Shown: piece by piece, positions 14,455 to 34,485 of the stretch | Numbering within the stretch: the first letter of the stretch is position 1 | Layout of the letters: the number at the start of each line of letters is the position of its first letter | Assembly: GCA_030653545.1 (NCBI GenBank) | Contig: JAURZE010000013.1 | Span: 62,001-126,000, forward strand | Origin: Nitrospira sp. | GTDB lineage: Bacteria > Nitrospirota > Nitrospiria > Nitrospirales > Nitrospiraceae | DNA length: 64,000 bases | Reading direction: 5' to 3' | The notes under the pieces: model-generated | Seen by the model: the letters and a program-made list of their open reading frames with translations, nothing else | What the model was told of the DNA's origin: nothing | Database searches by the model: none | Program-made: the position numbers and the translations under genes

Positions 14455-15417
14455 CTAACTACGAGCCATGTGCTTGGCTATCCTGGCTAGTACTCGGCGC
14501 AACCAGGCAAGTGATACATCCTGATGAATCGGGATCGGCAACACCTTCACTAAGGTGTGCTTCCCATTTTCCTCCACCTTTTCCATCGTGCGCATTCCCG
14601 CAGTCAGACCGAGTTCATCCACAAGCTCAGGTCCTACATCAACCAGAGCAGGCACGGCACAAGGCAATCGCTCCGCAGAACGTGATAACCAGGATGGCGC
14701 CACCGACCAGGCCAGCTCAATCTTCTGTTGTCTATCAGCCACGATGGCCGGCCATTCGCCCAAGGCTGCTATAACTTCTCCCATCTGTAGGCGGCTGCCC
14801 CTCCCACAGACTCCTTCACCACCTTGCCACCATGCGTGAAGAATCGGCGACTTGCTGCCAAGAAGGCGAAGAACCCACTGCATCGTAGCTCCTCGACGAG
14901 CATCCCGCACATACCTCAATCGATCGGCAACCTCAGGGCTTTTGCACCACAGGACCCCCCCACCCATCGTTCCCAGTATTTTTGGAAGTGACCAAATCTC
15001 GAAAGCTCCCCCTCGGGGGAATAGCTTACACCCGGGAACGACAAGAGTGTCAGCACAGTCCTCAATGTCATCGGCCTGAAGCTCATGGCTCTGCACATAC
15101 CCCCACTGGTGAAAACAAATCCTTACTCGAGCCTTTGCGGTCACACTGCCTGTCGATGGTGTGGCAATCCGAGAAACGGCGTCCAGCACGCAGTGACTCG
15201 CATATGGAAACACATGTACGCTGTCGGCACGGCCCAACCCGCTGCCTATGAGGGCAAGCACTATTGCCGACCGACCGGAAGAACACAGGACAGGATGCCC
15301 GCCATAGAACATGGAGGCGAGCCTAGCTTCAACCGATGTAGCTGAATCCAGTCGGAATGAGCGGGTGATAGCACGGACGGCACTGCCCTGCGGCCAAAGA
15401 AAATGGCTCTCGCTCAA
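14455..15417 (-). CDS. Divergent DegT-like PLP fold protein
   Basis: This 320-residue protein looks like a shortened, diverged member of the DegT/aspartate aminotransferase fold. CSSGRSAIVLALIGSG (45-60) fits the cofactor-phosphate segment NSGTSALHL. EDCADT (119-124) fits the pyridine-binding aspartate region. WSLPKILGTMGGGVLW (142-157) fits the lysine motif with K146 conserved. The protein is about 55 residues shorter than ordinary sugar aminotransferases and its C-terminal third does not align by eye. It may be an aminotransferase with an unusual substrate or a repurposed fold. Its start overlaps the stop of the FemAB-like gene by four bases, and the GNAT gene follows 13 bases downstream. 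Confidence 0.6.
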   Translation of the reverse strand: MSESHFLWPQGSAVRAITRSFRLDSATSVEARLASMFYGGHPVLCSSGRSAIVLALIGSGLGRADSVHVFPYASHCVLDAVSRIATPSTGSVTAKARVRICFHQWGYVQSHELQADDIEDCADTLVVPGCKLFPRGGAFEIWSLPKILGTMGGGVLWCKSPEVADRLRYVRDARRGATMQWVLRLLGSKSPILHAWWQGGEGVCGRGSRLQMGEVIAALGEWPAIVADRQQKIELAWSVAPSWLSRSAERLPCAVPALVDVGPELVDELGLTAGMRTMEKVEENGKHTLVKVLPIPIHQDVSLAWLRRVLARIAKHMARS

Positions 15418-16466: not shown

Positions 16467-16470
16467 GGCG

Positions 16471-17181
16471 CTAGGTTTCTTTTGACTGTCGTATCCCGCG
16501 ATAGACAGCCTCGGCCAATGTCCAATCTTCTTGCGTATCGATGTCAATCGCCTTGTACTTCGGCAAGATCTGCCCGATAAAGCCTACATCACTGCCAGCA
16601 CCTTCTGCACCGAGAACAAGATCAGCAGGATAGGCGACAAATGTTCCCGCATCGAAGTACTTCTTCTCTAAGTCCTGGGAACGCACCATGAACATTCCCG
16701 GCTGTACCGGCTTCAATCGACCGTCCTCTTGCCGGCGGAATGCCCATTCGATTGGTGCCTGATATTCGCTGATCGCTAACAACGGCTCGCGTCCGCCCGC
16801 CTGAATGAACAGCTTCTCCGCCTCGACCAAGTCCTTGCTGTCGACCAGCGGCGAACAGGCCATCAACAGCCAGACCTGGCTAAATGTTCGACCACGCCGT
16901 GCATACTCTCCGGCGACATATTTCAGCACCGGCATGATCGGCGTGTGATCATCCGCTAGCTCCTTTGGTCGGGGAAAATCGGGCTCAAACCCAAGCCCAG
17001 CAATCACATCTCTGATTACCTGACTGTCGGTAGAGACATGGATGACATCAAATAGGCCGCTGGCACGGGCCGCATTTAAGATATATGCAATTATCGGCTT
17101 GCCACAAAACTCGCGCACATTCTTGTTCGGTAGGCGCTTCGACCCCCCTCGTGCAGGGACGATAGCAAGACGCCTAATCAT
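16471..17181 (-). CDS. pseF: CMP-nonulosonate (pseudaminate) cytidylyltransferase
   Basis: The enzyme activates a nonulosonic acid with CTP to the CMP-sugar. Its 236 residues are normal for PseF and NeuA. The nucleotide-binding N-terminus IVPARGGSKRLPNKNVREF (7-25) is diagnostic, followed by HVSTDSQVIRDVI and LLMACSPLVDSKDL. The C-terminus GFIGQILPKYKAIDIDTQED is the usual PseF ending. Family resemblance alone does not separate pseudaminate from legionaminate or sialate enzymes, but PseB, PseC, PseG and PseI in the same locus favour pseudaminate. Its ATG overlaps the methyltransferase stop by four bases, so it is in the same operon. Confidence 0.88.
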   Translation of the reverse strand: MIRRLAIVPARGGSKRLPNKNVREFCGKPIIAYILNAARASGLFDVIHVSTDSQVIRDVIAGLGFEPDFPRPKELADDHTPIMPVLKYVAGEYARRGRTFSQVWLLMACSPLVDSKDLVEAEKLFIQAGGREPLLAISEYQAPIEWAFRRQEDGRLKPVQPGMFMVRSQDLEKKYFDAGTFVAYPADLVLGAEGAGSDVGFIGQILPKYKAIDIDTQEDWTLAEAVYRGIRQSKET

Positions 17182-18110
17182 TTTTCCAACCTGGGGATTG
17201 GGCCTACCCTATTTTCATCAGATGGTCGGAGAAATGCAGCAAGGTTTCGCCCAAACCCTAGCCTGGCAAGCGCCGACCAGAACCGAACCCCGTCTTCTAC
17301 TGGTCTCTCGTGAATCAGATTCTCAATTTGAATCCGGGCCTTGTGTGCTGCCTTTCCCACCGATTTGTCCCGAACATAATTTGATCCATGGTGGAATAAG
17401 AACCAGTCGATTGGAAAATTCGCCAATATCTCCTCGCATCCCCAGCCAGTGATCTGCGCGGTGTTTACCAAGCTATCATGGTCGAAATAGTTTAAGTGGT
17501 CAGGCGGAGAGACCCAGAAAGCATTATCGATATGCCCATGTGTCATCGCAGCGAGCTGCGTGATGGAACAGTCATTCGGCACCGACACTACAGCCATACC
17601 ATTCACTGCAACCAGTCTGTGCAAGGCCTGCAGAAGATCAATGGGATCGAGAACATGCTCAAGAACATTCTCCAACCACACGACATCGTAGACTTTCCCC
17701 GCCGCCAGTTCCTCCCTTAAGGACTCATAGATATCGCCCACAACGAGATGATCAAGACATTCTGGATGCTTAGATTGAACACCGGCGATACTAAAGTCCA
17801 ACCCCTTGACCGACCAACCCCGAGAACGGAAAAAAGACAACGCATGGCCTTCCCCGCAACCCACATCAAGCAAAGATCTTGTGCCCGCTGATGGGAGAAG
17901 ACACTTTTGAAGGACATGCCAATACTCTTCTAGCTTGCCTTGAATATGCAGCATTTCATCCTTGCTGTACTCCAGTGCCCCGCCTTTACCCTCCTGGTAA
18001 TACTTTTTCGAATAATACTGCTGCAACTCCTGGGGAGTTGGCTTGTCGCCTATCTCCCAAAACCCGTAGCGCGTTTTAGTCAGTCTTTGATCCACAGCCC
18101 GTCCCTTCAT
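17178..18110 (-). CDS. Class I SAM-dependent methyltransferase
   Basis: A 310-residue methyltransferase. The glycine-rich SAM motif is RSLLDVGCGEGHALSFF (79-94), with motif II near VKGLDFSIAG and a motif-IV-like YDVVWLENVLEHVLDPIDLL that places it in the Methyltransf_11/23 group. About 75 residues precede the SAM domain and contain YYSKKYYQEG, a tyrosine-rich segment common in methyltransferases of sugar clusters. It lies between the PhyH gene (33-base gap) and pseF (four-base overlap), so it probably methylates the nonulosonic acid or its acyl substituent. No zinc-ribbon of the C-methyltransferase type is present. Confidence 0.8.
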   Translation of the reverse strand: MKGRAVDQRLTKTRYGFWEIGDKPTPQELQQYYSKKYYQEGKGGALEYSKDEMLHIQGKLEEYWHVLQKCLLPSAGTRSLLDVGCGEGHALSFFRSRGWSVKGLDFSIAGVQSKHPECLDHLVVGDIYESLREELAAGKVYDVVWLENVLEHVLDPIDLLQALHRLVAVNGMAVVSVPNDCSITQLAAMTHGHIDNAFWVSPPDHLNYFDHDSLVNTAQITGWGCEEILANFPIDWFLFHHGSNYVRDKSVGKAAHKARIQIENLIHERPVEDGVRFWSALARLGFGRNLAAFLRPSDENRVGPIPRLEK

Positions 18111-18143: not shown

Positions 18144-19001
18144 CTAAAACCCGTAATCCTTTATTGAAGACTTGAGAACATCATATCCACATTTGGTATT
18201 AACACGCTCAAGGGGACTAATAGGCGGTATGGAACAGAACCCCAGCAACTGCTTCTGTTCATTGGAGCACGCCTGATAAATACTGTCGTTCATTCCTCGA
18301 ACTATATCCATCGAAGGCTTTATCCACCACATACCCAATGTGGCCACCAGCGCCCATCGAGATCGCCTTGAGACATTCTCAAGAGTCCCATGCCAAAGGC
18401 GGCTATCCCAGCAAATCAGGTCTCCAGCCTTCCCCACCAGCGGATAGATCTTTTGAAGGTCCCTGTCCGTATACGAACCAGACTTGTGTGATCCCGGCAC
18501 TACGACCGTACAACCATTACCCTCATCAGAGTCCTCCAATAAGACTACAAACTGCATCATGATTGTGCGACTCCCAACAAACGGAATATGGGAGTCAATG
18601 TGCAGATCAAGCTTGCCTCCGCTCGATCTGGCGTTGTAATACAGCAACACATAATTGGGGACTTCGGGTGGCAGAAAGCGATAATACGGATCATTCAACT
18701 TCTCTAACGCAATAGCGCGTATCAGTGGAGTCACTAAGATATCCAGGAATAGGCGGTCGAGATTGTGCAAACTATATAAAATCTTGTCGTCCTTGTCGCG
18801 AGCAGGCGTCCCCGTATACTCAACTTTCGCTTTTAGGTTTGCTGCCGCATAGTACTGATTCGTCTTCGCCAGCAACGTGTTGATTGTTCCTTGGTTCAGG
18901 AAGTTTCTAACACAGCAGTAACCGTAGCACTCCAATTCCTTCAGTGCCTGATCATGCTCTGCAAGACTTACCTCTCTCGACAAAGTTTCAGGAGTGATCA
19001 T
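18144..19001 (-). CDS. Phytanoyl-CoA dioxygenase (PhyH) family hydroxylase
   Basis: A non-heme iron, 2-oxoglutarate-dependent oxygenase of 285 residues, typical length for the family. The facial triad is visible: H134 and D136 in LDLHIDSHIP and H204 in WDSRLWHGTLENVS. An arginine about ten residues further (SRRSRW) probably binds 2-oxoglutarate. It would hydroxylate an aliphatic carbon. The ATG overlaps the stop of the RraA-like gene by four bases, and a methyltransferase follows downstream. Hydroxylation followed by methylation of a small acyl precursor or of the sugar is plausible but inferred. Base composition here looks more AT-rich than in the LPS operon. Confidence 0.82.
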   Translation of the reverse strand: MITPETLSREVSLAEHDQALKELECYGYCCVRNFLNQGTINTLLAKTNQYYAAANLKAKVEYTGTPARDKDDKILYSLHNLDRLFLDILVTPLIRAIALEKLNDPYYRFLPPEVPNYVLLYYNARSSGGKLDLHIDSHIPFVGSRTIMMQFVVLLEDSDEGNGCTVVVPGSHKSGSYTDRDLQKIYPLVGKAGDLICWDSRLWHGTLENVSRRSRWALVATLGMWWIKPSMDIVRGMNDSIYQACSNEQKQLLGFCSIPPISPLERVNTKCGYDVLKSSIKDYGF

Positions 19002-19732
19002 TTCTCTATCTCCCCTTCTTTCCCCTCTCTGCCGTCAAGCGACTTTTCGAGCTCTTTCAGCTGCTCAACATGAACGCTCGAGAGAAGCCCTTGCTCCGTG
19101 AGATAGGCCCTGTCACAGACAATCTTTTTCGTATCCCACTTGAGCGTATCAAGACAAAACAACCAGATGTCCTCTTGCATCTCAATCCGCCGCAGGCGAT
19201 TGAGCATCTCTTCTGTCAGCAAGCTCCGGCCGATGACCGTGACTCCCCCGTCGTCACAGACGGCAAGCCCACCTTCGTAAGATTGCCGGAGTTGCCCCTC
19301 GAGCTCTACCGGATACGGAGCAGCCAGCGTGTTATAACAACCCAAAGGGCTAACCCCTTCCGCCCACACAGCATACCCCTCGCGCCGAAGACGTGCAGTA
19401 TCGCGGACCAACCCTTTTACAACAACAGCCGCCGCACCTTTGTATAAGAGCAAATATTTGCAAACCAGATCACCGATAATTGCCCGGCCCTCGCAGTTAT
19501 GCGCAAAAATGATAACGACTTCACCCTTTTCCACCAGCCGTATCTGATCGTGAACCGAAAAGTTTGAGTTATTAGCCGTGAAGACAGTCCGCACTGGCCC
19601 CACACGAAACTGATTCAAGTTGATCGGGAGGACCTTCGGAAGCACACCTGCTTTCCCAAGGGCATCGGCAACCTCGGTTGTCGATACACGATTGGCAAGA
19701 CAAAACTCTTGTATCTGATCTCGGTATGTCAT
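18998..19732 (-). CDS. RraA/LigK-like aldolase-fold protein
   Basis: This 244-residue protein belongs to the RraA-like superfamily, which includes pyruvate-releasing class II aldolases (4-hydroxy-4-methyl-2-oxoglutarate and 4-carboxy-4-hydroxy-2-oxoadipate aldolases) and RNase E inhibitors. AIIGDLVCKYLL (84-95) and VVVKGLVRDTARL (103-115) give the G-X22-R-D core (R110, D111), and WAEGVSPLGC (123-132) is the usual next strand. The acidic residue expected three positions after the Asp is an arginine (R114), so aldolase activity is uncertain. An acidic, lysine-rich tail (about 215-244) is not part of the core. It overlaps phyH and follows a methyltransferase after 31 bases. Confidence 0.78.
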   Translation of the reverse strand: MTYRDQIQEFCLANRVSTTEVADALGKAGVLPKVLPINLNQFRVGPVRTVFTANNSNFSVHDQIRLVEKGEVVIIFAHNCEGRAIIGDLVCKYLLLYKGAAAVVVKGLVRDTARLRREGYAVWAEGVSPLGCYNTLAAPYPVELEGQLRQSYEGGLAVCDDGGVTVIGRSLLTEEMLNRLRRIEMQEDIWLFCLDTLKWDTKKIVCDRAYLTEQGLLSSVHVEQLKELEKSLDGREGKEGEIEK

Positions 19733-19763
19733 GAAACCCCCGTTTTATTTCCCGGCAGGAGAA

Positions 19764-20387
19764 TCACACTGACTTTAGGAGCTGCACCGTAAACTCATAG
19801 AGGGGATAATCGTGGATGAGATTTACATAGCGAGTAATCTGCCTCGCCTTGGAAAAAATCATCTCCGGCTGATAGTGTTGATTCTTATCGAGTTCATAAT
19901 CAACATACTTTGTCAGGAAGTTTAGAGAGGCAGCCTTTCGCGACAAGGCGTACATGCGCTCCATTGTGCCGTAGGCATACTCCTCGACTCCGACAGCCTT
20001 GAAGGATAACGCTCCGGACAACACCGCGATGTCAACAGGAGGGAGCGTGACTGAATGAATGTCGCCTACATAGAAGTCCCTTCCGGTTCCACCATACTTT
20101 GCAGCTGCTTCTCCAATCAGTTTCTCAGCAATATCCACCCCGATATATCGAAAGTCACCTCCTGTATGCCGCTCCAAGTAGGGGATCAACCCACCTAGCC
20201 CGCAGCCGACGTCAAGAATCGTTCTCCCCTTTGGATCAAGCCCCCTAAACAAAACATCGAATCGCAGATATTGCGAACTCTCATTTCCCCAACCAACCGT
20301 CTTAACATTGCTCCCATATTCGTCGAAACGGGCATTGTACAGACTAGCCACTTTCGAAAGATCGAGACTCTGCTCAGAATCCTTCAC
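19764..20387 (-). CDS. Class I SAM-dependent methyltransferase
   Basis: A small methyltransferase of 207 residues. The SAM-binding motif TILDVGCGLGGLIPYLE lies at 56-72, the acidic end of strand two is in YIGVDIAEKLIGEA, and GRDFYVGDIHSVTLP gives the motif-III region. The segment DIAVLSGALSF is the post-motif strand. The C-terminus (LIHDYPLYEFTVQLLK) is typical of small-molecule methyltransferases. Its ATG overlaps the amidohydrolase stop by four bases, so the two proteins are made together. It is the second methyltransferase in the same operon, which suggests two methylations or alternative acceptors. The substrate is unknown. Confidence 0.8.
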   Translation of the reverse strand: MKDSEQSLDLSKVASLYNARFDEYGSNVKTVGWGNESSQYLRFDVLFRGLDPKGRTILDVGCGLGGLIPYLERHTGGDFRYIGVDIAEKLIGEAAAKYGGTGRDFYVGDIHSVTLPPVDIAVLSGALSFKAVGVEEYAYGTMERMYALSRKAASLNFLTKYVDYELDKNQHYQPEMIFSKARQITRYVNLIHDYPLYEFTVQLLKSV

Positions 20388-21154
20388 AAATCATCCCATC
20401 CAAAAAAATCTCGTGCGTTGAGGCCCAAGATCTTCGTCATGACTTCTTCGGACAACCCTTGGCTCTGCATGAACTGACGGGACAACTCCAGCGTAACAGC
20501 GACGGATCTATCTGGATAGTCAGAGCCATAGAATATTCGGTCGAACTTCATGCTTCGCATCGCATAAATCATGTCACCAGGGATGGAACTCATCTGGTAA
20601 TACAGCAGCGAGTAGGAGATATCGAAATATACATTCGGCAGACGCTTGGCCAACATCATGAAATCCATCACATGATGTCCTCCCATGTGCGCCCAGATGA
20701 TGCGAGTCCCTGGGCACTGCTTTGCCAGAGACGCATATCTTAGCGGAGAAAATCCCTGCATCAGGTGCGTGCCATCCGGGAAGGCATCGATAAGGACAGG
20801 TACGTTCATCTCACCAGCAGCCTTTACAAGTCGCACCGTTTGGTCGTCATCGACGCCAAATCGTTGAAGGCGCGGGTGGAGCTTTAACCCAATGTACCCC
20901 AACCCCTCTATTCCCTCACGCAGAGACCGCTCTGGGTCGGCCCCATGAGGATGAACGTTAATGAACGCTCGAATTCTCGGGAACTTCGAAATTGCCTCCG
21001 CTACCTCGGCTGCAGACCAAGGCTGAATCTCGAGATGCAACACGAGAGCGCGATCTACGGCTGCCTCTTCAAGTTGACGATTCAATTCTCTAACGGCACC
21101 TATCGCCGTGCCGTCAACCTTCTCGTCAAGATGAAGATGCGCATCGATAATCAT
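20384..21154 (-). CDS. Amidohydrolase-2 family metal-dependent hydrolase/decarboxylase
   Basis: A 256-residue TIM-barrel metalloenzyme of the amidohydrolase-2 group. Visible metal-site residues are H6 and H8 in DAHLHLD, H93 in GLKLHPRLQ, H156 in IIWAHMGGHH and D212 in FYGSDYP. Relatives include 2-pyrone-4,6-dicarboxylate lactonase, 4-oxalomesaconate hydratase and acroleic-type decarboxylases, so it may hydrolyse a lactone, hydrate, or decarboxylate. It overlaps both neighbours by four bases (ATP-grasp upstream, methyltransferase downstream). Together with the LigK/RraA-like protein it recalls the LigI/LigJ-LigK pairing of aromatic catabolism, here inside a surface-sugar operon. Confidence 0.78.
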   Translation of the reverse strand: MIIDAHLHLDEKVDGTAIGAVRELNRQLEEAAVDRALVLHLEIQPWSAAEVAEAISKFPRIRAFINVHPHGADPERSLREGIEGLGYIGLKLHPRLQRFGVDDDQTVRLVKAAGEMNVPVLIDAFPDGTHLMQGFSPLRYASLAKQCPGTRIIWAHMGGHHVMDFMMLAKRLPNVYFDISYSLLYYQMSSIPGDMIYAMRSMKFDRIFYGSDYPDRSVAVTLELSRQFMQSQGLSEEVMTKILGLNARDFFGWDDL

Positions 21155-22362
21155 GAGACGACCTCTATATCAAAATGGATAAGAGATTCTGCATTATCCG
21201 CAAGCTCCCTGGCTAACTGAGGCGTTGATGCATGACTGAGAATGTAGCCCAGACGATCGCCATCTACCGTAGCGTGATGAAATCGATCACCAACCTTGGC
21301 AAATGCGTCTGCTTCAACCCCCTCCAGCATATTGGCGGATTCGAATCCTGTAATTTTTCGCAGCACACCGGGCTGGGAAGGAAAGAATCGCAAGACAGCC
21401 GCCTTCTTGCACTTGGCTATGGCGCTGACTTCTTCTCCTACCGCCTGCAAAGCCGTTAACCGCGCGATATTCACACCGCTCACCGCAGGTACGAGTCCGT
21501 CGAAAACCATGAATCCTCCACCACGACCGGCGACTTCAACTATCCCGACGCTACCATCTTTCATTAAGATTGCCTCCGCGTGACCTGGTCCATCCAGATA
21601 GCCAAGAGCCCGGTATGCTGCCACAACCGTTTCTGCGATACGCGCGACGACACCGGCCGGGCGATCAGGTGTAGCAAGTTCGCGTGCAACCGTTCCTCGG
21701 GTGCCCTCAACTTTCTTCTTTTCTGTTACAGCCAAGACATGGATGTTGCCATTTTCAGCAAAGACTTCCACAGTAAACTCAGTCCCATCCATATAGGACT
21801 CCATCAGGACCTTCCCGGATTTCGAGTACTGAAACGCCCTGCTCACAGCATCAGATAGGTCGTCCGCTGAAGACTCCAGTTTTGTCACCCCTCGACTTCC
21901 AGAAGAGTCCGCTGGCTTAAGAATCAACGGGAAGCCGAATACTGGGATAGCAGCCAAAACATCCTCGGCCCGCCTAAAGAGCCGCCATCTTGGTCCAGGC
22001 ACTCCCTTTTCAGTCCAGATTTGCCTTTGAACTGCTTTATCAAGAAGACGGAGCACGAGATCTGTACGAGGCCCAGGAAGACTCAACTCCTCGCGTAATC
22101 GAGCCGCAAGCATCATCCCAGCCTCCGAGACAATGCTCACCGCCCCTCGAATATTTTTGCCGAGACCTTTTACTCTCTGAATGATGGCCTCATGGTCGCT
22201 TAGATCCATATTTAAAATCTGATCCGCCTCCTTAAACCCTTCCGCATTCGGATCGGCATCAAGCGCAAGCACTTTCAAACCGGCTGCACGAGCCTCCTGA
22301 ATCCCATGCTTCTGCCACTTGCCTGCGGTCACTGCGATGAGCCAGCTCTCGTGATTGTTCAC
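21151..22362 (-). CDS. ATP-grasp carboxylate-amine ligase
   Basis: A 403-residue ATP-grasp enzyme, probably joining a carboxylate to an amine through an acyl phosphate. The pre-ATP-grasp N-terminal domain (about 1-110) starts WLIAVTAGKWQKHGIQEARA. The ATP-binding segment FPLILKPADSSGSRGVTKL lies near 145-163. The Mg-binding residues are in GPGHAEAILMKDG and GIVEVAGRGGGFMVFDGL. This pattern fits the L-amino-acid-ligase and biotin-carboxylase-like group. It sits between the amidohydrolase and pseG with four-base overlaps at both ends. That placement makes it the best candidate for coupling an acyl group to the amine of a nonulosonic acid or its precursor. Confidence 0.8.
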   Translation of the reverse strand: MNNHESWLIAVTAGKWQKHGIQEARAAGLKVLALDADPNAEGFKEADQILNMDLSDHEAIIQRVKGLGKNIRGAVSIVSEAGMMLAARLREELSLPGPRTDLVLRLLDKAVQRQIWTEKGVPGPRWRLFRRAEDVLAAIPVFGFPLILKPADSSGSRGVTKLESSADDLSDAVSRAFQYSKSGKVLMESYMDGTEFTVEVFAENGNIHVLAVTEKKKVEGTRGTVARELATPDRPAGVVARIAETVVAAYRALGYLDGPGHAEAILMKDGSVGIVEVAGRGGGFMVFDGLVPAVSGVNIARLTALQAVGEEVSAIAKCKKAAVLRFFPSQPGVLRKITGFESANMLEGVEADAFAKVGDRFHHATVDGDRLGYILSHASTPQLARELADNAESLIHFDIEVVS

Positions 22363-23231
22363 AGCAAACCTCGAATGATCGACGACACTCTCTCCACGCC
22401 CCGGCCATCAACTAATTCCAGACCACATTCTGAGACCACCCTAACTTCTTCTGGAGCGAAACCGCGAAGCTGTTCAAGCCCGATCCCGAGAACAGCCCCA
22501 TGCGTTTCGGCAAAACGAGCGATCTTCAACTCCTCACTCGTCTGCGGCAATACGAACGCCGCCTTCCCCACGCAAAGCGCCTCAAACAAACAGCCGCCCC
22601 CGTTTGTGACCGCCCAATCACAAGAAGCCAGAAGTTGTGGAAGCTCAGGCGGATTGACGAGAACGCGATACCCGGCATCCGCCACAATGGCTTTCGCCAA
22701 AGGTCCCTGAACGAGGGTGACGTCGAGGCCTTCATCCCTGAGTCGCCGCGCAGCTTCTGGTCCTTGCCCAAGAAGGTCGCCTCCACCAATGACAACGAGC
22801 ACACGCCTGGCCCGTCCGGTAGGCGGAGTACGATGGAGTGCAGCTATTTCCTCACGCACGAGGATATATTGAAATCCGACATACGCTTGCCGGGTGGCGC
22901 GTACCTCTCCGTGAGGATAAACCGCAATATTAATATTCGGAATCGTTTCACCAAACCAATCAAGCGCCACAGTTGTCTGTCCACCTTCATGCGCTGTACG
23001 AATTTGGTCATCTATTCCCACATGAGAGTCAAATACCACCACCCTTGCAGGAACTCCCAAATACTTCGGCGTTGGTAACATCCGGCTCGCGGACTCGGAA
23101 AGCCCGGAAACACGAACACCAATTCCCTCTTTTTCCAAGCGAGCTGCCAGCGCAGAGGACCGCCGTATGTGCCCCCAGCCGACCTTTTCATTGCCATCAC
23201 AGAAAATCTCTGCCACGGGGCATTGGGTCAT
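22359..23231 (-). CDS. pseG: UDP-2,4-diacetamido-2,4,6-trideoxy-altropyranose hydrolase (PseG)
   Basis: PseG removes UDP from UDP-2,4-diacetamido-2,4,6-trideoxy-beta-L-altropyranose in the fourth step of pseudaminate synthesis. This GT-B-like protein has 290 residues. The catalytic glycine-histidine motif VGWGHIRRSSALA is at 17-29 with H21 in the base position. VLVVIGGGD (144-152) starts the C-terminal domain, and VTNGGGCLFEALCVGKAAFVLP is the UDP-binding region. It is slightly divergent from Campylobacter and Helicobacter enzymes, so a related altro- or gluco-configured sugar is possible. The four-base overlap with pseI and with the ATP-grasp gene indicates coordinated expression. Confidence 0.82.
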   Translation of the reverse strand: MTQCPVAEIFCDGNEKVGWGHIRRSSALAARLEKEGIGVRVSGLSESASRMLPTPKYLGVPARVVVFDSHVGIDDQIRTAHEGGQTTVALDWFGETIPNINIAVYPHGEVRATRQAYVGFQYILVREEIAALHRTPPTGRARRVLVVIGGGDLLGQGPEAARRLRDEGLDVTLVQGPLAKAIVADAGYRVLVNPPELPQLLASCDWAVTNGGGCLFEALCVGKAAFVLPQTSEELKIARFAETHGAVLGIGLEQLRGFAPEEVRVVSECGLELVDGRGVERVSSIIRGLL

Positions 23232-24277
23232 TCCACCACATCCCAGCTGAGACGATCGCCTAGCTGCAGATCGCGCAGGACCCTACGACCCAGGAGATCT
23301 TTGTAGTGCTTCGGATGCAAGCCGAAGGATGGTCGCACTGACTTGATATTAGACTGCGTAAGGCGTTCTCCTGCCCTAATGGCTGCCGAGACATAGAGAG
23401 AACGCCGGCCACGAAGACTTTGCAAGGCAGACGGCGCGATCTCATAACTAACGCGCCCAAGTGCCTTCTCGACGAGGCGAACCTCTCTGACCAAACGCGA
23501 GAACTCGCCTTCCCCAGAAGAAAAAAACGAATCGACCGTCTCTATTCCGTCATCAAGGGTGAAATGCTTTTCGATAAAGTGGGCTCCAAGAGCGACCGAT
23601 GCCACCGCTGCGGCAATACCCACGGTGTGATCCGATAGCCCGGGAACCACACCAAAGCGAGTCGCCATATCCGAAATCGTCCGCAAATTAGACTCCTCTG
23701 GAGGGGCGGGATAAGCCGTCGTGCATTTCAGCACGACAATCTCATGGGCACCAGCCGCACGAAGAGTTGCCAAGGCAAGTTCGATATCAGCTAGTGTCGC
23801 GATGCCTGTGGAGATGATGACCGGCTTCCCGGTCCGAGCAACTTTCTCAAGGAGGGGGAGGTGGGTGATTTCAGGAGATGCGATCTTATAGGCTGGAGCC
23901 TGCAGCTGCTCTAGTAGGTCGATTGCTGACTCATCAAACGGGCTCGAAAACACCTCCAAACCTATCCCTCTAGCCTCACGAAAAATCGCCTCATGCCACC
24001 CCCAGGGAGTGTGAGCCTTATCGTACAGGTCCCATAGGGTTGAATGGTTAGCCCAAGGGTTCTCTGCCGGAATAGAAAAGTCGTCACGGTCACACTTGAG
24101 TGTAATGGTGTCTGCGGTATAGGTCTGCAGCTTGATCGCGTCCGCACCAGCACGTTTGGCCGCATGGACAATGGCAATGCCACGCTCAAGACTTCCGCCA
24201 TGATTACCGGACATTTCGGCGACAATAAAAGTCGGATGCCCGGGGCCCAGAGTGTGCTTACCAATGCGTATTTGCAT
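23228..24277 (-). CDS. pseI: Pseudaminic acid synthase (NeuB family)
   Basis: The enzyme condenses a 2,4-diacetamido-trideoxyhexose with phosphoenolpyruvate to the nine-carbon nonulosonic acid. With the ATG at 24277 it has 349 residues, the standard PseI length; the longer frame would overlap the aminotransferase stop. FIVAEMSGNHGGSLERG begins the TIM barrel. KIASPEITHLPLLEKVA, SDHTVGIAAAVASVALGA and FIEKHFTLD are conserved NeuB-family segments. A C-terminal SAF (antifreeze-like) domain spans about 290-349. The M-S-G-N-H variant at the N-terminus is more PseI-like than NeuB-like. It lies ten bases downstream of the class III aminotransferase gene. Confidence 0.92.
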   Translation of the reverse strand: MQIRIGKHTLGPGHPTFIVAEMSGNHGGSLERGIAIVHAAKRAGADAIKLQTYTADTITLKCDRDDFSIPAENPWANHSTLWDLYDKAHTPWGWHEAIFREARGIGLEVFSSPFDESAIDLLEQLQAPAYKIASPEITHLPLLEKVARTGKPVIISTGIATLADIELALATLRAAGAHEIVVLKCTTAYPAPPEESNLRTISDMATRFGVVPGLSDHTVGIAAAVASVALGAHFIEKHFTLDDGIETVDSFFSSGEGEFSRLVREVRLVEKALGRVSYEIAPSALQSLRGRRSLYVSAAIRAGERLTQSNIKSVRPSFGLHPKHYKDLLGRRVLRDLQLGDRLSWDVVE

Positions 24278-24287
24278 GCCTAATATT

Positions 24288-25613
24288 CTAGTTGAGTTTG
24301 CGAAAGACTGGCTTGACAACTTTGCCTTTGAGCGCAGCCCTCATCCCCGCCCCCTCGGCTGATTTCTTCATGACGTCGAGAGCATCGCGGACGCACTCTA
24401 CGGCAAATTCGATGGTTTCTCTCCTATGCGCATAGGAAGGAACCACGTAGGGCATCAATAGGCCACGCGCGATCGTTTCCTGCAAAAACAGTGTGCGCGC
24501 CAGCATCGAAACCTGCCCGGTTTCATCCCTAAACGCGAACCCCGGCTTTACACTATATCCAACAATGTCGATATATCGCTCAGCGCCGACATCTTTTGCC
24601 GCGGCACGCACACCATCCATCAGCGCCTTACCCGTTTCCCAAAAATGCGCTACGATATTGTGCCGACGGATCTCGTTGATACAGGCGATGGCCGCCGCAA
24701 GACAGTGCGTCTCCCCACCGTGAGTCGTAGAGAGTAAAAATACTCGTTCTTGGTCATGATCAATTCCACCGATGCGCATAAATTCGCGCTGCCCCACAAG
24801 CGCACTTACCGAGAAGCCATTCGCCATTCCCTTGCCAAAAGCACTCAGATGAGGCGTCACTCCCACCATTTCCTGGGCTCCACCCAGAGCAAACCGAAAG
24901 CCGGAAACTATTTCATCAAAAATCAAGAGCGCACCGTTCTTCTCACAAAGCGCCTTGAGGTTTTCAAGAAACCCTTCTTTAGGCGCCTCCAGAGAGACGG
25001 GCTCGAGAATAAAACAGGCGATCTGCCCAGGGTACTCATCAAAAAGCTTTTGACAGCTCCCAAGATCGTTGTAATTAAATTTAAGTGTGAGTGCCTGTAT
25101 CTCCACCGGAATACCCCGAGGGATCACCGTTGAACCGATGAACCAATCGTGGATTGCGTTAAATGCGTCGGATGAACACCGTGCAATATATTTCCGCTCC
25201 GTGTAGGCACGAGCAAGTTTGACCGCGGCAGTCACTGCATCAGACCCATTTTTCCCAAACTTGACCATCTCAGCGGATGGGATAATTTCGACAAGAAGCT
25301 CTGCGAGCTCCCCTTCAATCACTGACGGACGACAGAAATTCACTCCCCGTGTGAGCTCTTTACGGACTGCATCAAGAACGGGCTCGTACGCGTGACCAAG
25401 AATAACTGTGCCAAGTGACATAGCCAAATCGACGAATTCGTTCCCATCAACATCCCATAGAGCACAACCCAATCCCCGATCAATGATCCTGGGGGCATTT
25501 TCCGGGAACTGATCATCGCCTTTACTATATGTATGCGCCCCTCCTGGTATCAGAAGACGTGCTCTATCAGCACAAATCTTCGTCCGCTCATACTTCAAAG
25601 TCTTCTTTTTCAT
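24288..25613 (-). CDS. Glutamate-1-semialdehyde aminomutase-like class III aminotransferase
   Basis: A 441-residue PLP enzyme of class III, close in layout to glutamate-1-semialdehyde 2,1-aminomutase. LLIPGGAHTYSKG (20-32) is the characteristic N-terminal glycine-rich loop. VKFGKNGSDAVTAAVKLAR follows. LLIFDEIVSGFRF contains the cofactor aspartate D233 and LSAFGKGMANGF contains the Schiff-base lysine K261. Its location at the head of the pseI-pseG-ligase run argues against a haem role and for amination or amine migration on a sugar-linked acyl precursor. A 400-base non-coding stretch precedes it, so a separate promoter is possible although none could be identified convincingly. Confidence 0.85.
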   Translation of the reverse strand: MKKKTLKYERTKICADRARLLIPGGAHTYSKGDDQFPENAPRIIDRGLGCALWDVDGNEFVDLAMSLGTVILGHAYEPVLDAVRKELTRGVNFCRPSVIEGELAELLVEIIPSAEMVKFGKNGSDAVTAAVKLARAYTERKYIARCSSDAFNAIHDWFIGSTVIPRGIPVEIQALTLKFNYNDLGSCQKLFDEYPGQIACFILEPVSLEAPKEGFLENLKALCEKNGALLIFDEIVSGFRFALGGAQEMVGVTPHLSAFGKGMANGFSVSALVGQREFMRIGGIDHDQERVFLLSTTHGGETHCLAAAIACINEIRRHNIVAHFWETGKALMDGVRAAAKDVGAERYIDIVGYSVKPGFAFRDETGQVSMLARTLFLQETIARGLLMPYVVPSYAHRRETIEFAVECVRDALDVMKKSAEGAGMRAALKGKVVKPVFRKLN

Positions 25614-26013: not shown

Positions 26014-26913
26014 TCACCGTCGTTCCCAACGGGCAGGATTCAGTAGATCCGAGTCGCTCACATGCAAACTCGACGGCAATGGCGGCAATGTTCCCTCAGC
26101 ACACAAAATGATTTCCTGAAGCTGAGCCTTACTGTCAGCACCAACCACCACCTTCGCAATCTCAGAAAACGATAGAATGTGCCGCAGACAACCCTGCACG
26201 GGCGTAAGCTGATGATCAACCAGCCAGTGGTCCCAAGTCTCCAACAGTTTCTGCCAACGGGTAAAAAACGTTGGCCGCTGAGCGGCTGGCATTAACAGCA
26301 GGCCTTGCAAAAAAATGGAGCGCACATGAACTTCAACCCCCTGCCCATACAGACGCGCCAGCCACCCTGTATCAACTATCCGACGATCCAGCACATTGAA
26401 GGGCGTCTGAACTAGGTCAAATGTATAGCCATCGCATAGCGACTCCAGCTCATCCGGCGCGTAGATCGAAATCCCTATCTTCTCCACCAAACCTTGCGAT
26501 TTAAGATCGCCCAGCGCATAGTAAAGCGCTTGCCCTAATTTGCCCAACAGCTGCTCAGGGCAATGCAACAGCAAGCCGTACAAACGGCTGGCGTGTAAAC
26601 GGGAAAGGGATGCGTGTACCTGCTGCCTAACCCATACAGAAATATCCCTACAACCATCGGGGACTGCAGGTAGTTTTGTGACTAACTTAAACGCTTGAGT
26701 TCCCACTTCCCCCAAACAGGCTTCACTCTCGCCATAGGCAATTGCGGTATCAAGCGTATCAATCCCATTGGCCGCAGCCAATTGCAGCATAGCTTTTGCC
26801 TCGGGCCGGGCAACTTGCCCGGTCCGATTAGCAACCCCATAGGGCAGTCCGAATTGGACCGTACCCAAAGCCAGCCTTGAAACCACCGATTCGCTATGCA
26901 TCAATCCATTCAA
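26014..26913 (-). CDS. Aldo/keto reductase
   Basis: An NADPH-dependent reductase of 299 residues with an aldo/keto reductase TIM barrel. The N-terminal ALGTVQFGLPYGVANRTG and DTLDTAIAYGESEACLGEV give the active-site Asp-Tyr pair (in DTAIAYG). KLVTKLPAVPD holds the catalytic lysine and LYGLLLHCPEQLL the histidine strand. Homologues occur in flagellar and nonulosonic-acid glycosylation clusters, where they probably reduce a keto sugar or an acyl precursor. It is flanked on both sides by spacers of 300-400 bases, so it may form its own transcription unit within the locus. The substrate is unknown. Confidence 0.85.
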   Translation of the reverse strand: MNGLMHSESVVSRLALGTVQFGLPYGVANRTGQVARPEAKAMLQLAAANGIDTLDTAIAYGESEACLGEVGTQAFKLVTKLPAVPDGCRDISVWVRQQVHASLSRLHASRLYGLLLHCPEQLLGKLGQALYYALGDLKSQGLVEKIGISIYAPDELESLCDGYTFDLVQTPFNVLDRRIVDTGWLARLYGQGVEVHVRSIFLQGLLLMPAAQRPTFFTRWQKLLETWDHWLVDHQLTPVQGCLRHILSFSEIAKVVVGADSKAQLQEIILCAEGTLPPLPSSLHVSDSDLLNPARWERR

Positions 26914-27226: not shown

Positions 27227-28363
27227 TCATGCCCCTTCACCAATTAACCCCTGCTTATACTTCGCGTTGATATTCTCCGGATCAATTTCCTTGTCGCCCA
27301 CAAGATCGTATAGATCCGTATTCGAAAGTCGCACGGCAACTTCAGGAGGCAAGTTATGCCTGTTGGTATAGACGAGGGCATCAGCATGTGGAAGCAACTG
27401 ATCGCACTGATCGCAGTATGGGAATAGCCGGAAATTGTTCGTGCGGTGAGCCCACCGGAGAAACCGATACTTTTCACCATTAAGAATGTCAAGAACCGGC
27501 TGTTCGAACGCATTCCCGAGCACAATCTGATTGTTATAGTCATAGCAACAGGGAATCACTTCCCCGTCCCATTGGATTTGAAGGGGACCGTTTTCTGGCC
27601 GGCCACATGTCGCCTTCAGCTCAACAGCTTGATGTCGCTCACGATAGGATCGACCGTCACCGAAGTTATGGGGCTTCCACATTTCGATGGCATCGGCACG
27701 CGGTTCCCAGTAAGCACGAAACGCATCGACATCAGACTCGTTCTCCTTCATCACTAGATAGGAGAGCTCTAACTTTGGTTTCTTTAAACCTCTCTGAGAT
27801 CGTTCCTCCAAGAATCCCAACAAATTGTTCGTTGCGACATGAAAGTCAAGTCTCTCCATTACGACGTTGTATGTCTCTGGACTCATACCGTAAAAACTGA
27901 CACGCATTTCATCCAAGCCCGATTCGATCAAGCTCTTGGCCCGGGCGGGTGTAATCAGCGACCCATTCGTAATGATGTAGGTATTGAGATTCTTTGCTTT
28001 CGCGTATGAAATTTTCTGTTCAAGCGTCTTGTCAATTAAGGGTTCTCCAAAACCGGTCAATACAATCTTTTTTGCTCCAAGCGAAACAACTTCATCAATG
28101 CTGCGCTTATACTTCCCCAAGTCCATAATACCGTGAGGACGGGCATCCTCATGCTGCTCTCGAGGACACATGATGCAGATCGCATTGCAATGGTCGGTCA
28201 CTTCATAGCGCACCTCTTGGTGTCGCAACGCCGTGAACGGCTGGTCCTCCTTAGCCTCTTTTTCTAAAACCCTTCGGTCATATCCGCTCCATGCGACACT
28301 TCCATCCTCTAGAAGATCGCCTTGCCCGAACATCCTCAATTTATCTGAGCCGTTACCGGCCAT
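27227..28363 (-). CDS. Radical SAM/SPASM domain protein
   Basis: A 378-residue radical SAM enzyme. The iron-sulphur motif CNAICIMC gives C59, C63 and C66 (CX3CX2C). The SAM-binding glycine-rich strand KIVLTGFGEPLID follows. The C-terminal SPASM/twitch region contains CGRPENG, VIPCCYDYNN and YCDQCDQL, so auxiliary iron-sulphur clusters are expected. GNAFEQPVLDILNGEKYRFLR is the usual segment between them. AGGGAGGA seven bases before the ATG at 28363 fixes the start over a longer frame. In glycan loci such proteins carry out epimerisation, dehydrogenation or amine chemistry, and the reaction here is unknown. It is followed by a 313-base spacer. Confidence 0.85.
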   Translation of the reverse strand: MAGNGSDKLRMFGQGDLLEDGSVAWSGYDRRVLEKEAKEDQPFTALRHQEVRYEVTDHCNAICIMCPREQHEDARPHGIMDLGKYKRSIDEVVSLGAKKIVLTGFGEPLIDKTLEQKISYAKAKNLNTYIITNGSLITPARAKSLIESGLDEMRVSFYGMSPETYNVVMERLDFHVATNNLLGFLEERSQRGLKKPKLELSYLVMKENESDVDAFRAYWEPRADAIEMWKPHNFGDGRSYRERHQAVELKATCGRPENGPLQIQWDGEVIPCCYDYNNQIVLGNAFEQPVLDILNGEKYRFLRWAHRTNNFRLFPYCDQCDQLLPHADALVYTNRHNLPPEVAVRLSNTDLYDLVGDKEIDPENINAKYKQGLIGEGA

Positions 28364-28370
28364 CGGATTA

Positions 28371-29453: not shown

Positions 29454-29459
29454 CGACTT

Positions 29460-31368: not shown

Positions 31369-32547
31369 TCAGTATAGCAACTCGTTCAAAAGGGAGACCA
31401 CCGTATCCTGCTGTCTTTCTGTAAGGTCATAGAACAACGGAAGGCTCAAGGCCTGGTGGTAGTAGGACTGGGCATTCGGATAGCGATCCGGGCAGAAACC
31501 TAGACGGCGATAATACGGGTGTGCCGGGACCGGCATGTAATGCACCTGACAGACGACCCCTCTCTCTCGAAGCCGCGTCATGAATTCGGCCCGGCTTATC
31601 CCTGCGGCGGCAAAATCAATCCGCACCGCATACAAATGGTGGGCGCTCCGGTCCCGTTGGCCGAGCTGGATCGGTTGAATCCGTTTAGAGCCTGCGAAAG
31701 CTTCGTCGTAGCGATCCACTAGCTGCCGACGCCGAGCAACAAACTTATCAAGTTTAGCTAATTGTGTAGTCCCCAACGCGCATTGAATATCTGTGATCCG
31801 ATAATTAAAGCTCAACTCCTGCATCTCATAGTACCAAGGGTTGGGCCGTCCATCTGTGAACGCCGCGTCCCGGTCCAAGAACTCATCCGAGCCCTTATTG
31901 ATGCCGTGACTGCGAAGACGTAACAGCCTCCTGTACACCTGCTCATCATTCGTCGTGACCATTCCGCCTTCACCGGTGGTGATCGATTTCACAGGATGGA
32001 AGGAGAACGTAGTCATAAGCGAGTACGCGCAGGACCCAACCATTCTCCCATCTGAGTAGCGCGAACCAAGAGCATGAGCTGCATCCTCAATGATTACCGC
32101 CCCTGCCTTGACTGCGGCCGCGCCTATTGCAGCCATGTCACAAGGGAGCCCTGCGAAATGCACGGGAATGATGACCTTCGCATCAGGATTCTGATTGAGC
32201 GTATGCACCAATCCAGATGGGGAGAGATTGATTGTTTCAGGATCCACATCGGAGAATACCGGCCGCGCACCGACATACAACGCAGCATTGGCACTCGCCA
32301 CAAAAGTAATGGGAGAGGTGACCACCGCAGAAGAAGAACCGACATCAGCCGCGATCGCCGCAAGATGCAGCGCAGCCGTGCCGTTGGAAACCGCAACGGC
32401 ATAGCGAACTCCTACATATGTAGCGATGGCCTGTTCAAACTCAGCGACTTTAGGCCCTTGAGTGAGGGCCCCACTCCGAAGACATTCCACCACCGCCTGA
32501 ATATCGGCGTCATCAATGTGTTGCCGGCCGTACGAGATCATGTCCAT
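31369..32547 (-). CDS. pseC: UDP-4-amino-4,6-dideoxy-N-acetyl-altrosamine transaminase
   Basis: PseC aminates the 4-keto sugar formed by PseB, using glutamate and PLP. The 392 residues include VSNGTAALHL (53-62), IIEDAAHALG with the cofactor aspartate at about 155, and the lysine motif FSFHPVKSITTGEGGMV with K187. SFNYRITDIQCALG is the dimer-interface segment typical of PseC and related DegT enzymes. The start lies directly after the pseB stop with only two bases between, a coupling seen in pseudaminate operons. A second, differing DegT aminotransferase lies at 0.9-2.0 kb, so two amino-sugar routes coexist. A 130-base spacer separates it from the downstream ABC exporter. Confidence 0.92.
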   Translation of the reverse strand: MDMISYGRQHIDDADIQAVVECLRSGALTQGPKVAEFEQAIATYVGVRYAVAVSNGTAALHLAAIAADVGSSSAVVTSPITFVASANAALYVGARPVFSDVDPETINLSPSGLVHTLNQNPDAKVIIPVHFAGLPCDMAAIGAAAVKAGAVIIEDAAHALGSRYSDGRMVGSCAYSLMTTFSFHPVKSITTGEGGMVTTNDEQVYRRLLRLRSHGINKGSDEFLDRDAAFTDGRPNPWYYEMQELSFNYRITDIQCALGTTQLAKLDKFVARRRQLVDRYDEAFAGSKRIQPIQLGQRDRSAHHLYAVRIDFAAAGISRAEFMTRLRERGVVCQVHYMPVPAHPYYRRLGFCPDRYPNAQSYYHQALSLPLFYDLTERQQDTVVSLLNELLY

Positions 32548-32549: not shown

Positions 32550-33548
32550 CTAGGGCAACCCCGGCTTCTGTTGATATTCCCTAATCCAGGCCTGCAGGGA
32601 GGAGACGGGCATCCATTCTGGATTTGTGTCGGAGGTGTACATGAACCCTTCCGGCACCTTTCGACCATCTTTGATGCGCCTGGGATCATCGCACCAGGCA
32701 TTCAGCGCAGGCAAGATTTTGTAATAGCTCGAGTATTCATATGTGGAAAATGAATCCTCAGAACTGATCATCTGCTCGTGCAGCTTCTCTCCAGGGCGGA
32801 TACCGATGATGTCGAACTTCGCCTCCGGTGCAACTGCCTTTGCAATGTCCGTAATCGTCATGGAAGGGATTTTCCTGACATAAATTTCCCCTCCCACCAT
32901 ATCCTCGAACGCATGCCAAACCAACTCGACGGCCTGCTCGAGTGAGATCATGAACCGCGTCATCCGAACATCGGTGATCGGCAACCTCCCAGTTTCAGCG
33001 AGCGACATGAAAAACGGGATGACCGATCCGCGCGAGCCCATCACGTTTCCATACCTGACCACGGCAAAGCGTGTGCTCTGCATACCAGAATAGGCATTGC
33101 TGGCAACGAATAATTTATCCGATGCCAGCTTGGACGCTCCGTACAAATTCGCCGGGCTGCTGGCCTTGTCGGTGGAAAGCGCAATGACGCCTTTGACTTT
33201 CTGATTGATGCAAGCATCGATCACATTCATTGCGCCATCGATGTTGGTCTTGATGCATTCAAACGGATTGTACTCGGCCGTCGGAACAATTTTCGTCGCA
33301 GCGGCGTGCACAACGTAGTCGACCCCGCTGAAGGCACGATGCAGGCGATCTTTGTCTCGAACGTCACCGATAAAGAAGCGCACTCTTCGATCATGCTGAA
33401 ACAACTTGGCCATTTCCCATTGCTTCATCTCGTCGCGGGACAAGATCACAAGACGGGAAGGGTTAAACTTGGCCAAAGTCATGGGAACGAAGGTATGGCC
33501 GAATGATCCTGTGCCACCGGTAATGAGAATAGATGCCCCTGTTAACAT
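32550..33548 (-). CDS. pseB: UDP-N-acetylglucosamine 4,6-dehydratase (inverting)
   Basis: PseB is the first enzyme of pseudaminate synthesis, a soluble extended SDR that dehydrates UDP-GlcNAc with C5 inversion. The ATG at 33548 has GAGG seven bases upstream and gives 332 residues, the normal length. The longer frame would enter the next gene. ILITGGTGSFGHTF (7-20) binds NADP. LSTDKASSP (124-132) carries the Asp-Lys catalytic pair and NLYGASK (134-140) the Tyr/Lys. VVRYGNVMGSRGSVIPFF is the family's substrate region. It is much shorter than membrane PglF dehydratases, which fixes the PseB type. It feeds pseC directly downstream. Confidence 0.94.
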   Translation of the reverse strand: MLTGASILITGGTGSFGHTFVPMTLAKFNPSRLVILSRDEMKQWEMAKLFQHDRRVRFFIGDVRDKDRLHRAFSGVDYVVHAAATKIVPTAEYNPFECIKTNIDGAMNVIDACINQKVKGVIALSTDKASSPANLYGASKLASDKLFVASNAYSGMQSTRFAVVRYGNVMGSRGSVIPFFMSLAETGRLPITDVRMTRFMISLEQAVELVWHAFEDMVGGEIYVRKIPSMTITDIAKAVAPEAKFDIIGIRPGEKLHEQMISSEDSFSTYEYSSYYKILPALNAWCDDPRRIKDGRKVPEGFMYTSDTNPEWMPVSSLQAWIREYQQKPGLP

Positions 33549-33558
33549 AGACGTTCCT

Positions 33559-34485
33559 CTATCCGTCAATTGATTCAAGGATCTCCGAGCGACGCCCCTC
33601 TTCTTCCTGTGCCTGCAGCTCCCGTAGATACTCGTGAATCGTCCCTAGCCCATGTCCGAGCACCTGTTGCAACTTACTGCTATCCAGAGACATATCCCGA
33701 GGACGCGGGGCCAACAACGTAGCGAGGGAAAGTTGTCCGCGATCGATCAAATTGGTCGGCAGGCTGAAATGATCCGACACCCTCAGTCCAAACTCGTACT
33801 TCGAAAGCCGAGTTGCTCCGACCACATTGAAGATGCCCGAGGCGCCCTTCTCGACTAACTCATGCGCGGCCAATGCCAATCGATCAGCCAAAATAGGGGT
33901 GAAATAGACATCATCAAAGAGAGTGAGCGGTTTGCCGGCGCGAAGGTTATAAATCAACCAATCGCTGAACGACTGCCGATACCGATGCCCCCAGCCAAAA
34001 AAGTTAGTTCGCAAGATCAGACTCTTCGGATATGCGGCTTGGACCCACTCCTCTGCCAGCGCCTTTGATCGGCCATATTCGTTGATCGGCTGCACTGGTT
34101 CTTGCTCGGAGTAGCAGGATCTCTCCCCGGCGAACAAGTGATCTGTGGAAATATGAACCAACGCTAGGCTCTTCTTTTCGGTTGCCTCGCCAATATTGCG
34201 TGCGATAACGGCATTCGCCTGCCTGGCCAAATCACGGCTCTCTTCACAGCGATCAACACTCGTCAACCCGGCAGTGTGCACCACAAGATCCGGAGAAAGG
34301 GAATCAAGTTGGCGCCCTAGCTGCGTAGGATCCTGAAGGTTGAGGCTACAAGCGTTCGTTCCTGCGAGCTGAACGGTATGCTGATGCATCCCGAGGACCA
34401 CTTCCCATCGATTGCGCATCGCACAAGCCCAGTTGAGCGCAAGCAGACCACTACCTCCTGTCAACAATAATCTTGGCTTCTTCAT
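33559..34485 (-). CDS. RmlD-like sugar-nucleotide reductase (SDR)
   Basis: A 308-residue SDR resembling dTDP-4-dehydrorhamnose reductase. The dinucleotide loop is LLLTGGSGLLALN (7-19), with a Leu-Leu-Ala in place of the usual Phe-Leu-Gly. VVHTAGLTSVDRCEE, HISTDHLFAG (111-120) and the Tyr/Lys pair in EYGRSKAL (Y137, K141) follow the RmlD pattern. SGIFNVVGATRLSKYEFG is the family's C-terminal strand. It lies ten bases upstream of pseB. It could reduce a 4-keto sugar to make a second deoxysugar for the glycan. A true rhamnose role is unlikely because no RmlA/B/C genes are nearby. Confidence 0.82.
   Translation of the reverse strand: MKKPRLLLTGGSGLLALNWACAMRNRWEVVLGMHQHTVQLAGTNACSLNLQDPTQLGRQLDSLSPDLVVHTAGLTSVDRCEESRDLARQANAVIARNIGEATEKKSLALVHISTDHLFAGERSCYSEQEPVQPINEYGRSKALAEEWVQAAYPKSLILRTNFFGWGHRYRQSFSDWLIYNLRAGKPLTLFDDVYFTPILADRLALAAHELVEKGASGIFNVVGATRLSKYEFGLRVSDHFSLPTNLIDRGQLSLATLLAPRPRDMSLDSSKLQQVLGHGLGTIHEYLRELQAQEEEGRRSEILESIDG

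Follow-up and report, generated by a model that had tools for sequence, protein, structure and literature searches.

A PseG-linked gene block in a Nitrospira pseudaminate locus, a candidate N-acylation cassette

In the textbook route to pseudaminic acid, PseH acts between PseC and PseG, and acetate is the only acyl group that is added. Nonulosonic acids are largely shaped by their N-acyl groups, and few routes that add such groups are known. Here we describe a block of small-molecule genes directly behind pseG in a pseudaminate locus of Nitrospira sp. (GenBank assembly GCA_030653545.1, contig JAURZE010000013.1, positions 62,001 to 126,000 of the forward strand; this 64,000-nucleotide stretch is referred to as the window, and all coordinates are counted from its first letter). 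The block encodes an ATP-grasp ligase, an amidohydrolase-2 protein and a methyltransferase (MT1), in some loci followed by an RraA-like protein and, in fewer, by a PhyH-type dioxygenase. We consider it probable, with some reserve, that these genes form together with their own PseG a swappable N-acylation cassette that replaces PseH.

Described systems and the layout of the Nitrospira locus

An exchange of this kind has been described in Acinetobacter baumannii, in which psaABC and psaF stay constant while the gene pairs psaDE, psaGH and psaIJ replace one another and the 7-N-acyl group changes accordingly, with psaDE (a nucleotidase and an acetyltransferase) giving the 7-N-acetyl form and psaGH giving the 7-N-(R)-3-hydroxybutanoyl form (PMC9676051). 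The Nitrospira locus resembles this arrangement in that a PseG-type nucleotidase and an acyl-transfer gene are exchanged together while the rest remains constant; it differs in that acetyltransferase-type enzymes are used there, whereas an ATP-grasp ligase and genes for making or tailoring an acid are found here. A nonulosonate that is both aminoacylated and methylated is known from Clostridium botulinum, the product being Leg5GluNMe7Ac (PMC13317340). It parallels the product proposed below in carrying a methylated amino acid on a nonulosonate amine, with a methyltransferase in the locus, but it is a legionaminate rather than a pseudaminate, and ATP-grasp and amidohydrolase proteins go unmentioned in the text of that paper. 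The sfmABCDE genes for flagellin modification in Shewanella oneidensis, likened here by their description, also form an operon tied to a nonulosonate, in which an ATP-grasp_4 protein (SfmE) and a methyltransferase occur together with a PseI-like domain; there, however, SfmA is PseI-like, SfmB is a thiamine pyrophosphate enzyme and SfmC is a reductase, and amidohydrolase, RraA and PhyH proteins are not described (PMC3765264).

Compared with the canonical PseB-C-H-G-I-F pathway, the window retains PseB, PseC, PseI and a PseF-like protein, but PseH was not found, PseG falls into a clade of its own, and behind it stand four to five additional genes. The genes of the locus, in order along the minus strand, are as follows.

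33559..34485, minus strand: RmlD-like short-chain dehydrogenase/reductase (SDR), possible extra component; adjoins pseB/pseC in relatives
32550..33578, minus strand: pseB, UDP-GlcNAc 4,6-dehydratase (inverting); TIGR03589 513 bits, over cut-off
31369..32547, minus strand: pseC, UDP-4-keto-sugar aminotransferase, makes the free 4-amine; TIGR03588 489 bits, over cut-off
26014..26913, minus strand: aldo/keto reductase, common in ordinary pseudaminate loci of the phylum
24288..25613, minus strand: class III aminotransferase (PRK06209, glutamate-1-semialdehyde-aminomutase-like), outside the core module
23228..24319, minus strand: pseI, pseudaminic acid synthase, likely start ATG 24277; TIGR03586 456 bits, over cut-off
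22359..23231, minus strand: pseG, module-type UDP-sugar hydrolase of a separate clade; TIGR03590 51.3 bits, below cut-off 153.55
21151..22362, minus strand: ATP-grasp carboxylate-amine ligase with LAL_C2 domain, proposed PseH role; PF13535 and PF18603 over cut-offs
20384..21154, minus strand: amidohydrolase-2 (PF04909, E 8e-27) with an atypical metal site
19764..20387, minus strand: MT1, class I S-adenosylmethionine methyltransferase by family match and fold, module core
18998..19732, minus strand: RraA/HMG-aldolase-like protein, frequent module member; metal/enolate residues conserved
18144..19001, minus strand: PhyH-type Fe(II)/2-oxoglutarate dioxygenase, occasional module member; 62-63% to the L009 locus
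17178..18110, minus strand: methyltransferase 2 (Methyltransf_23), just outside 18144-25613
16471..17181, minus strand: pseF-like CMP-transferase; 190.6 bits, just under cut-off 205.7

Eight of these genes lie within 18144-25613, running from the class III aminotransferase through pseI, pseG and the module to PhyH, with pseB and pseC upstream at 31369-33578 and methyltransferase 2 and pseF following. Five of the seven junctions inside the interval are 4-base overlaps (pseI/pseG, pseG/ATP-grasp, ATP-grasp/amidohydrolase, amidohydrolase/MT1 and RraA/PhyH), and MT1 and RraA are separated by a gap of 31 bases. The aminotransferase and pseI share 32 bases if the first TTG is taken as the start of pseI, and only then; the ATG at 24277 lies nearer the start of the PseI family match and leaves a short gap after the aminotransferase. 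An earlier sequence-only reading of this interval had named these families and described most junctions as 4-base overlaps, and both statements hold. It had also placed the aminotransferase between pseI/pseG and pseF, which is corrected by its position upstream of pseI, and had counted two methyltransferases in the interval, of which MT1 lies inside and methyltransferase 2 falls just beyond its edge.

The conventional part of the pathway is well represented, as PseB, PseC and PseI all score over their curated cut-offs, PseF narrowly misses its own, and pseI is present as a single copy in the genome. By all signs, the product of the locus is a CMP-nonulosonate.

Recurrence of the block and co-inheritance with PseG

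When about 85,000 genomes were scanned for the ATP-grasp protein, eight relatives at 43-63% identity were found, so that the protein is conserved across nine genomes; as the scan relied on exact peptide patterns, it undercounts carriers. The relatives belong to Bacteroidota (L002, L003, L005 and L009), a betaproteobacterium (L004), Magnetococcales (L006 and L007) and Planktomarina (L008), and the core is thus carried by eight unrelated metagenome-assembled genomes. The order PseG–ATP-grasp–amidohydrolase–MT1 is kept in seven of the eight as far as the contigs reach, the L005 contig stopping inside the amidohydrolase gene, and L006 has the same genes rearranged. RraA is found in four relative loci (L003, L004, L006 and L009) but not in those of L002, L007 and L008, and PhyH is found in L009 only, in the same order as in the window. 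Because this gene order recurs in unrelated genomes, the association of the module genes goes far beyond chance. The sequence-only reading had staked itself on these families recurring with pseI/pseG elsewhere, and the core does so in the eight other carriers.

The block is rare and is shared horizontally. In samples of 296, 395, 48, 296 and 346 genomes from the relevant taxa, the amidohydrolase family at E < 1e-40 was detected in the known carriers only, and a search of 58 further genomes from the same genus and order gave no RraA-like protein. A plasmid search with RraA, amidohydrolase, MT1 and ATP-grasp yielded distant relatives only, and carriage of the module on plasmids was dropped for this reason; the plasmids with the distant MT1 homologues, rhizobial ones and others, have WbqC and dTDP-4-amino-sugar genes near them. 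No relative of the ATP-grasp protein was found in the viral contigs searched. Full-text literature searches combining pseudaminate with the module protein families, a scope outside which most subscription journals fall, yielded no description of the gene set.

PseG itself links the module to the pathway, more strongly than does the lack of PseH given below. Set against ten conventional PseGs from the phylum to which the window belongs, those of the module loci group in a single clade (100/100 support), and they do so again, with 100/100 support, against 13 Bacteroidota PseGs plus four of the phylum. All nine match TIGR03590 weakly (best E 6e-18), the window's PseG falling well under the curated cut-off, compared with 248-324 bits for four conventional PseGs of the phylum. 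Across pairwise identities among carriers, computed on 5 to 9 loci, PseG divergence correlates with that of ATP-grasp (r 0.87), amidohydrolase (0.84), MT1 (0.92) and RraA (0.85), and PseC is uncorrelated with PseG, ATP-grasp, amidohydrolase and MT1 (0.03-0.28). The window PseC is 53% identical to a protein of its own phylum and about 48% identical to those of L002, L003 and L005. In the L006/L007 pair, ATP-grasp (65%) and PseG (48%) are mutually closest and PseB (52%) and PseC (50%) are not. This co-variation and the separate clade are what a joint swap of PseG and an acyl-transfer gene against a constant pathway, of the A. baumannii type, leaves behind, and they suggest that, of the old pathway enzymes, PseG alone has specialised along with the module. 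As PseG acts directly after the acylation step, its specialisation indicates that the acyl group is probably altered before PseG.

No PseH over the curated cut-off was found in any of the nine carriers, including the window genome (G000, 99.9% complete). In the conventional PseGs of L063 and L064, the PseH GNAT domain is fused to PseG, and this is the place that the ATP-grasp gene occupies here, joined by its 4-base overlap. The earlier proposal of an extra small-molecule module whose ATP-grasp protein would acylate a nonulosonate amine is thus backed by co-occurrence and by co-evolution with PseG. Its inclusion of the aminomutase-like aminotransferase is not: this gene is not module-specific, since it is present in 6 of 17 ordinary pseudaminate loci of the phylum that lack the module, and in distant module loci it is absent or only 30-41% identical, and it was ruled out as a module part on both counts.

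Several observations weigh against the cassette. Of 17 further genomes in the phylum with a PseI, only 3 have a protein over the PseH cut-off, the conventional genomes filling the slot by a PseG–GNAT fusion, by a formyltransferase with PIG-L or by an SDR with a PylC-like ATP-grasp and a HAD protein; the absence of PseH therefore counts for little and was dropped as sole proof of replacement. Similarity among the window, L002, L003 and L005 extends to PseB, PseI and the aminotransferase, and what this group shares is therefore larger than the cassette; PseB and PseI were for this reason dropped as negative controls equal to PseC, which is left as the sole clean one. The carriers other than the window are all metagenome-assembled genomes. 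Finally, the window encodes two proteins that could acetylate the amine instead, one a NeuD/PglD-type acetyltransferase (2024-2683), the other a GNAT protein (13296-14441).

In conventional pseudaminate loci of the phylum, acylation sets also precede pseI, consisting of a formyltransferase with a PIG-L deacetylase or of an SDR, a PylC-like ATP-grasp and a HAD protein (L061:10040-11411; L069:6347-8276).

Predicted enzymes and the proposed acyl group

By profile, the nearest characterised relatives of the ATP-grasp protein with solved structures are the L-amino acid ligases BL00235 (E 1e-37) and BacD (E 1e-17), with which it shares the ATP-grasp and LAL_C2 domains; unlike in those enzymes, the acceptor here is expected to be an amino sugar and not a free amino acid. 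Relatives at about 30% identity that carry LAL_C2 occur in capsule loci beside DegT aminotransferases. Judged from domains and gene position, the ligase probably takes the PseH role and acylates the amine of the nonulosonate precursor.

The RraA-like protein, aligned to the HMG/CHA aldolase LigK (PDB 3noj), keeps the equivalents of Arg123, Asp124, Asn71, His75 and Gly101, with R110/D111, aligned to R123/D124, invariant in five sequences. In the aldolase, Arg123 stabilises the enolate, Asp124 and Glu199 bind the metal, and Asn71 and Lys147 are essential; Lys147 and a second residue have been proposed as ligands of the C5-carboxylate of 4-carboxy-4-hydroxy-2-oxoadipate (CHA), and changing Lys147 to Ala lowers kcat more than 1000-fold (PMC5065237). 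In the RraA-like protein, by contrast, Lys147 is replaced by an invariant Asn134 and Glu199 is aligned to Gln, a conserved C-terminal extension is added, the score against the LigK equivalog TIGR02798 is 39.4 bits (cut-off 304.5), and aromatic-catabolism neighbours are lacking. The LigK comparison made in the sequence-only reading therefore survives for the aldolase core and fails at Lys147. As the core is kept and Lys147 is changed to Asn, the protein likely performs 2-oxo-acid chemistry on a substrate differing from that of LigK.

The structure model of the amidohydrolase-2 protein (predicted local distance difference test 90.7) has 3irs (Z 26.1) and 3cjp (Z 24.8) as its nearest folds, and alignment of the model to 3irs_A, with a root mean square deviation of 2.6 over 240 residues, supports the amidohydrolase-2 fold. 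The predicted metal site consists of His6, His8, Asp123, His156 and Asp212, and Asp123, invariant in eight sequences, stands in place of the beta-5 metal His of homologues and of 3cjp. Among the top matches are 2-pyrone-4,6-dicarboxylate hydrolases alongside many other activities, and LigJ is not among the matches listed. Since many enzymes of the amidohydrolase fold are equally close to the protein, and since the beta-5 metal His is gone from it, the earlier likening of it to LigI/LigJ is unsupported, and subtyping by fold was dropped. The family PF04909 is broad, with carboxylases, hydratases, hydrolases and monooxygenases, and a small neighbouring Rieske protein has served as the marker for finding the dinuclear oxygenases AibH2/PtmU3/SfbO (PMC10811679). 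No Rieske family was found among the scanned genes from 10431 to 34485; a dinuclear oxygenase reading was dropped for want of such a neighbour and because the ligand set is not provable from sequence. MT1 has a class I methyltransferase fold, and its subtyping by fold was likewise dropped, many neighbours being equal. The nearest solved relatives of PhyH are small-molecule 2-oxoglutarate oxygenases.

From these assignments we infer an entry point between PseC and PseG and the following reactions. PseB and PseC would provide UDP-4-amino-4,6-dideoxy-L-AltNAc. The carboxylate of a small acid would be activated by the ATP-grasp ligase as an acyl phosphate and joined to the sugar 4-amine, in place of the acetate that PseH takes from acetyl-CoA. 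The acid, for which an amino acid or a hydroxy acid formed from a 2-oxo acid is the likeliest candidate, would be made or decorated by the RraA-like protein (2-oxo-acid aldol chemistry), the amidohydrolase, MT1 (methylation) and PhyH (hydroxylation); the earlier description of it as branched is a guess, since nothing in the analysis identifies the acid. The cognate PseG would then remove UDP, PseI would condense the sugar with phosphoenolpyruvate, and PseF would yield CMP-Pse5Ac7X. A bolder version, which we offer tentatively and regard as doubtful, is that RraA aldol chemistry and the reaction of the Asp-for-His amidohydrolase, possibly an oxygenase or lyase activity yet to be described, make a new acid that is hydroxylated, methylated and joined by the ATP-grasp ligase to the pseudaminate precursor, so that the product would be a nonulosonic acid not yet observed by chemical means.

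A rare, shared gene set with a specialised PseG thus turns the acyl group into a concrete question, with one ligase, one enzymatically makeable acceptor and one mass to measure, and provides a testable lead to an undescribed surface sugar. It also contains an amidohydrolase metal site that is unstudied and an RraA relative apparently recruited for biosynthesis.

Alternative placements of the module and other genes in the window

The module might act later or elsewhere, with the amidohydrolase freeing the N5 or N7 amine of pseudaminate or CMP-pseudaminate and the ATP-grasp ligase re-acylating it with the tailored acid. PF04909 is broad enough in hydrolases and lyases to accommodate such a step (PMC10811679), and a PIG-L deacetylase and a formyltransferase adjoin pseI in other loci of the phylum, so that remove-and-replace schemes do exist. 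Sugar N-deacylation, however, is not among the PF04909 activities listed in PMC10811679, and it is PseG, acting on the UDP-sugar before the nonulosonate is formed, that is co-inherited with the module as a clade of its own, which points to the UDP-sugar stage; we consider the later action unlikely. It is less probable still, and in our view quite unlikely, that the target of the cassette is another amino sugar in the same surface glycan, plain pseudaminate being made alongside and acetylated by the NeuD-like or the GNAT protein. Both of these candidates are present, the distant MT1 homologues lie beside WbqC and dTDP-4-amino-sugar genes, and distant ATP-grasp homologues occur in non-pseudaminate capsule loci, but in the relative loci the module stands directly behind pseG, usually with pseI too, with overlapping genes, and PseG co-varies with it.

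The RraA-like protein could also work on the nonulosonate itself, a 3-deoxy-2-oxo-4-hydroxy acid, for example in a retro-aldol/aldol epimerisation at C4, and not on an acyl precursor. The class II pyruvate-aldolase residues are kept, nonulosonates carry the matching 4-hydroxy-2-oxo unit, and a C4 epimer, 4-epilegionaminic acid, is known (PMC3210612). Against this, the C–C bond is already made by PseI, and RraA co-varies with the amidohydrolase, MT1 and PseG and is absent from the locus in three carriers, as given above; RraA therefore behaves as a tailoring gene of the cassette, and direct action on the nonulosonate is very improbable.

The RmlD-like SDR adjoins pseB/pseC in five of the six relative loci covering that region (L002, L003, L005, L007 and L009) and has a single match, at 29%, among 17 conventional loci; it may belong to the system. 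A homologue of methyltransferase 2 was found in none of the module loci examined, and a 36% relative is present in one ordinary locus. After pseF, at 13296-16547, a trio is encoded that consists of a FemAB-like protein (TIGR04421, below cut-off), a pyridoxal phosphate-dependent protein (TIGR04422, 321 bits, over cut-off) and a double-GNAT protein; the module loci L009 and L002 contain it too, and it is possibly a second unit for decorating an amino sugar. Downstream of the module in L002 (12664-15652) and L003 (13347-14926) are a second NeuB-like synthase and a nucleotidyltransferase-like gene, accompanied in L002 by a class I aminotransferase and a nitrilase-type amidase.

The stretch separating pseC from the aldo/keto reductase (27227-31238) encodes a radical SAM/SPASM protein, a glycerophosphotransferase-like protein and an ABC exporter, and a UpxY/RfaH-type antiterminator lies directly upstream of the cluster (34593-35099). 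At 889-3306, a DegT aminotransferase, the NeuD/PglD-type acetyltransferase and an exopolysaccharide-type initiating sugar transferase perhaps provide a bacillosamine-like first sugar. Farther away, at 61876-63270, is a gene for the Pup-protein ligase PafA (563 bits, over cut-off), which serves proteasome tagging and is known chiefly from Actinobacteria.

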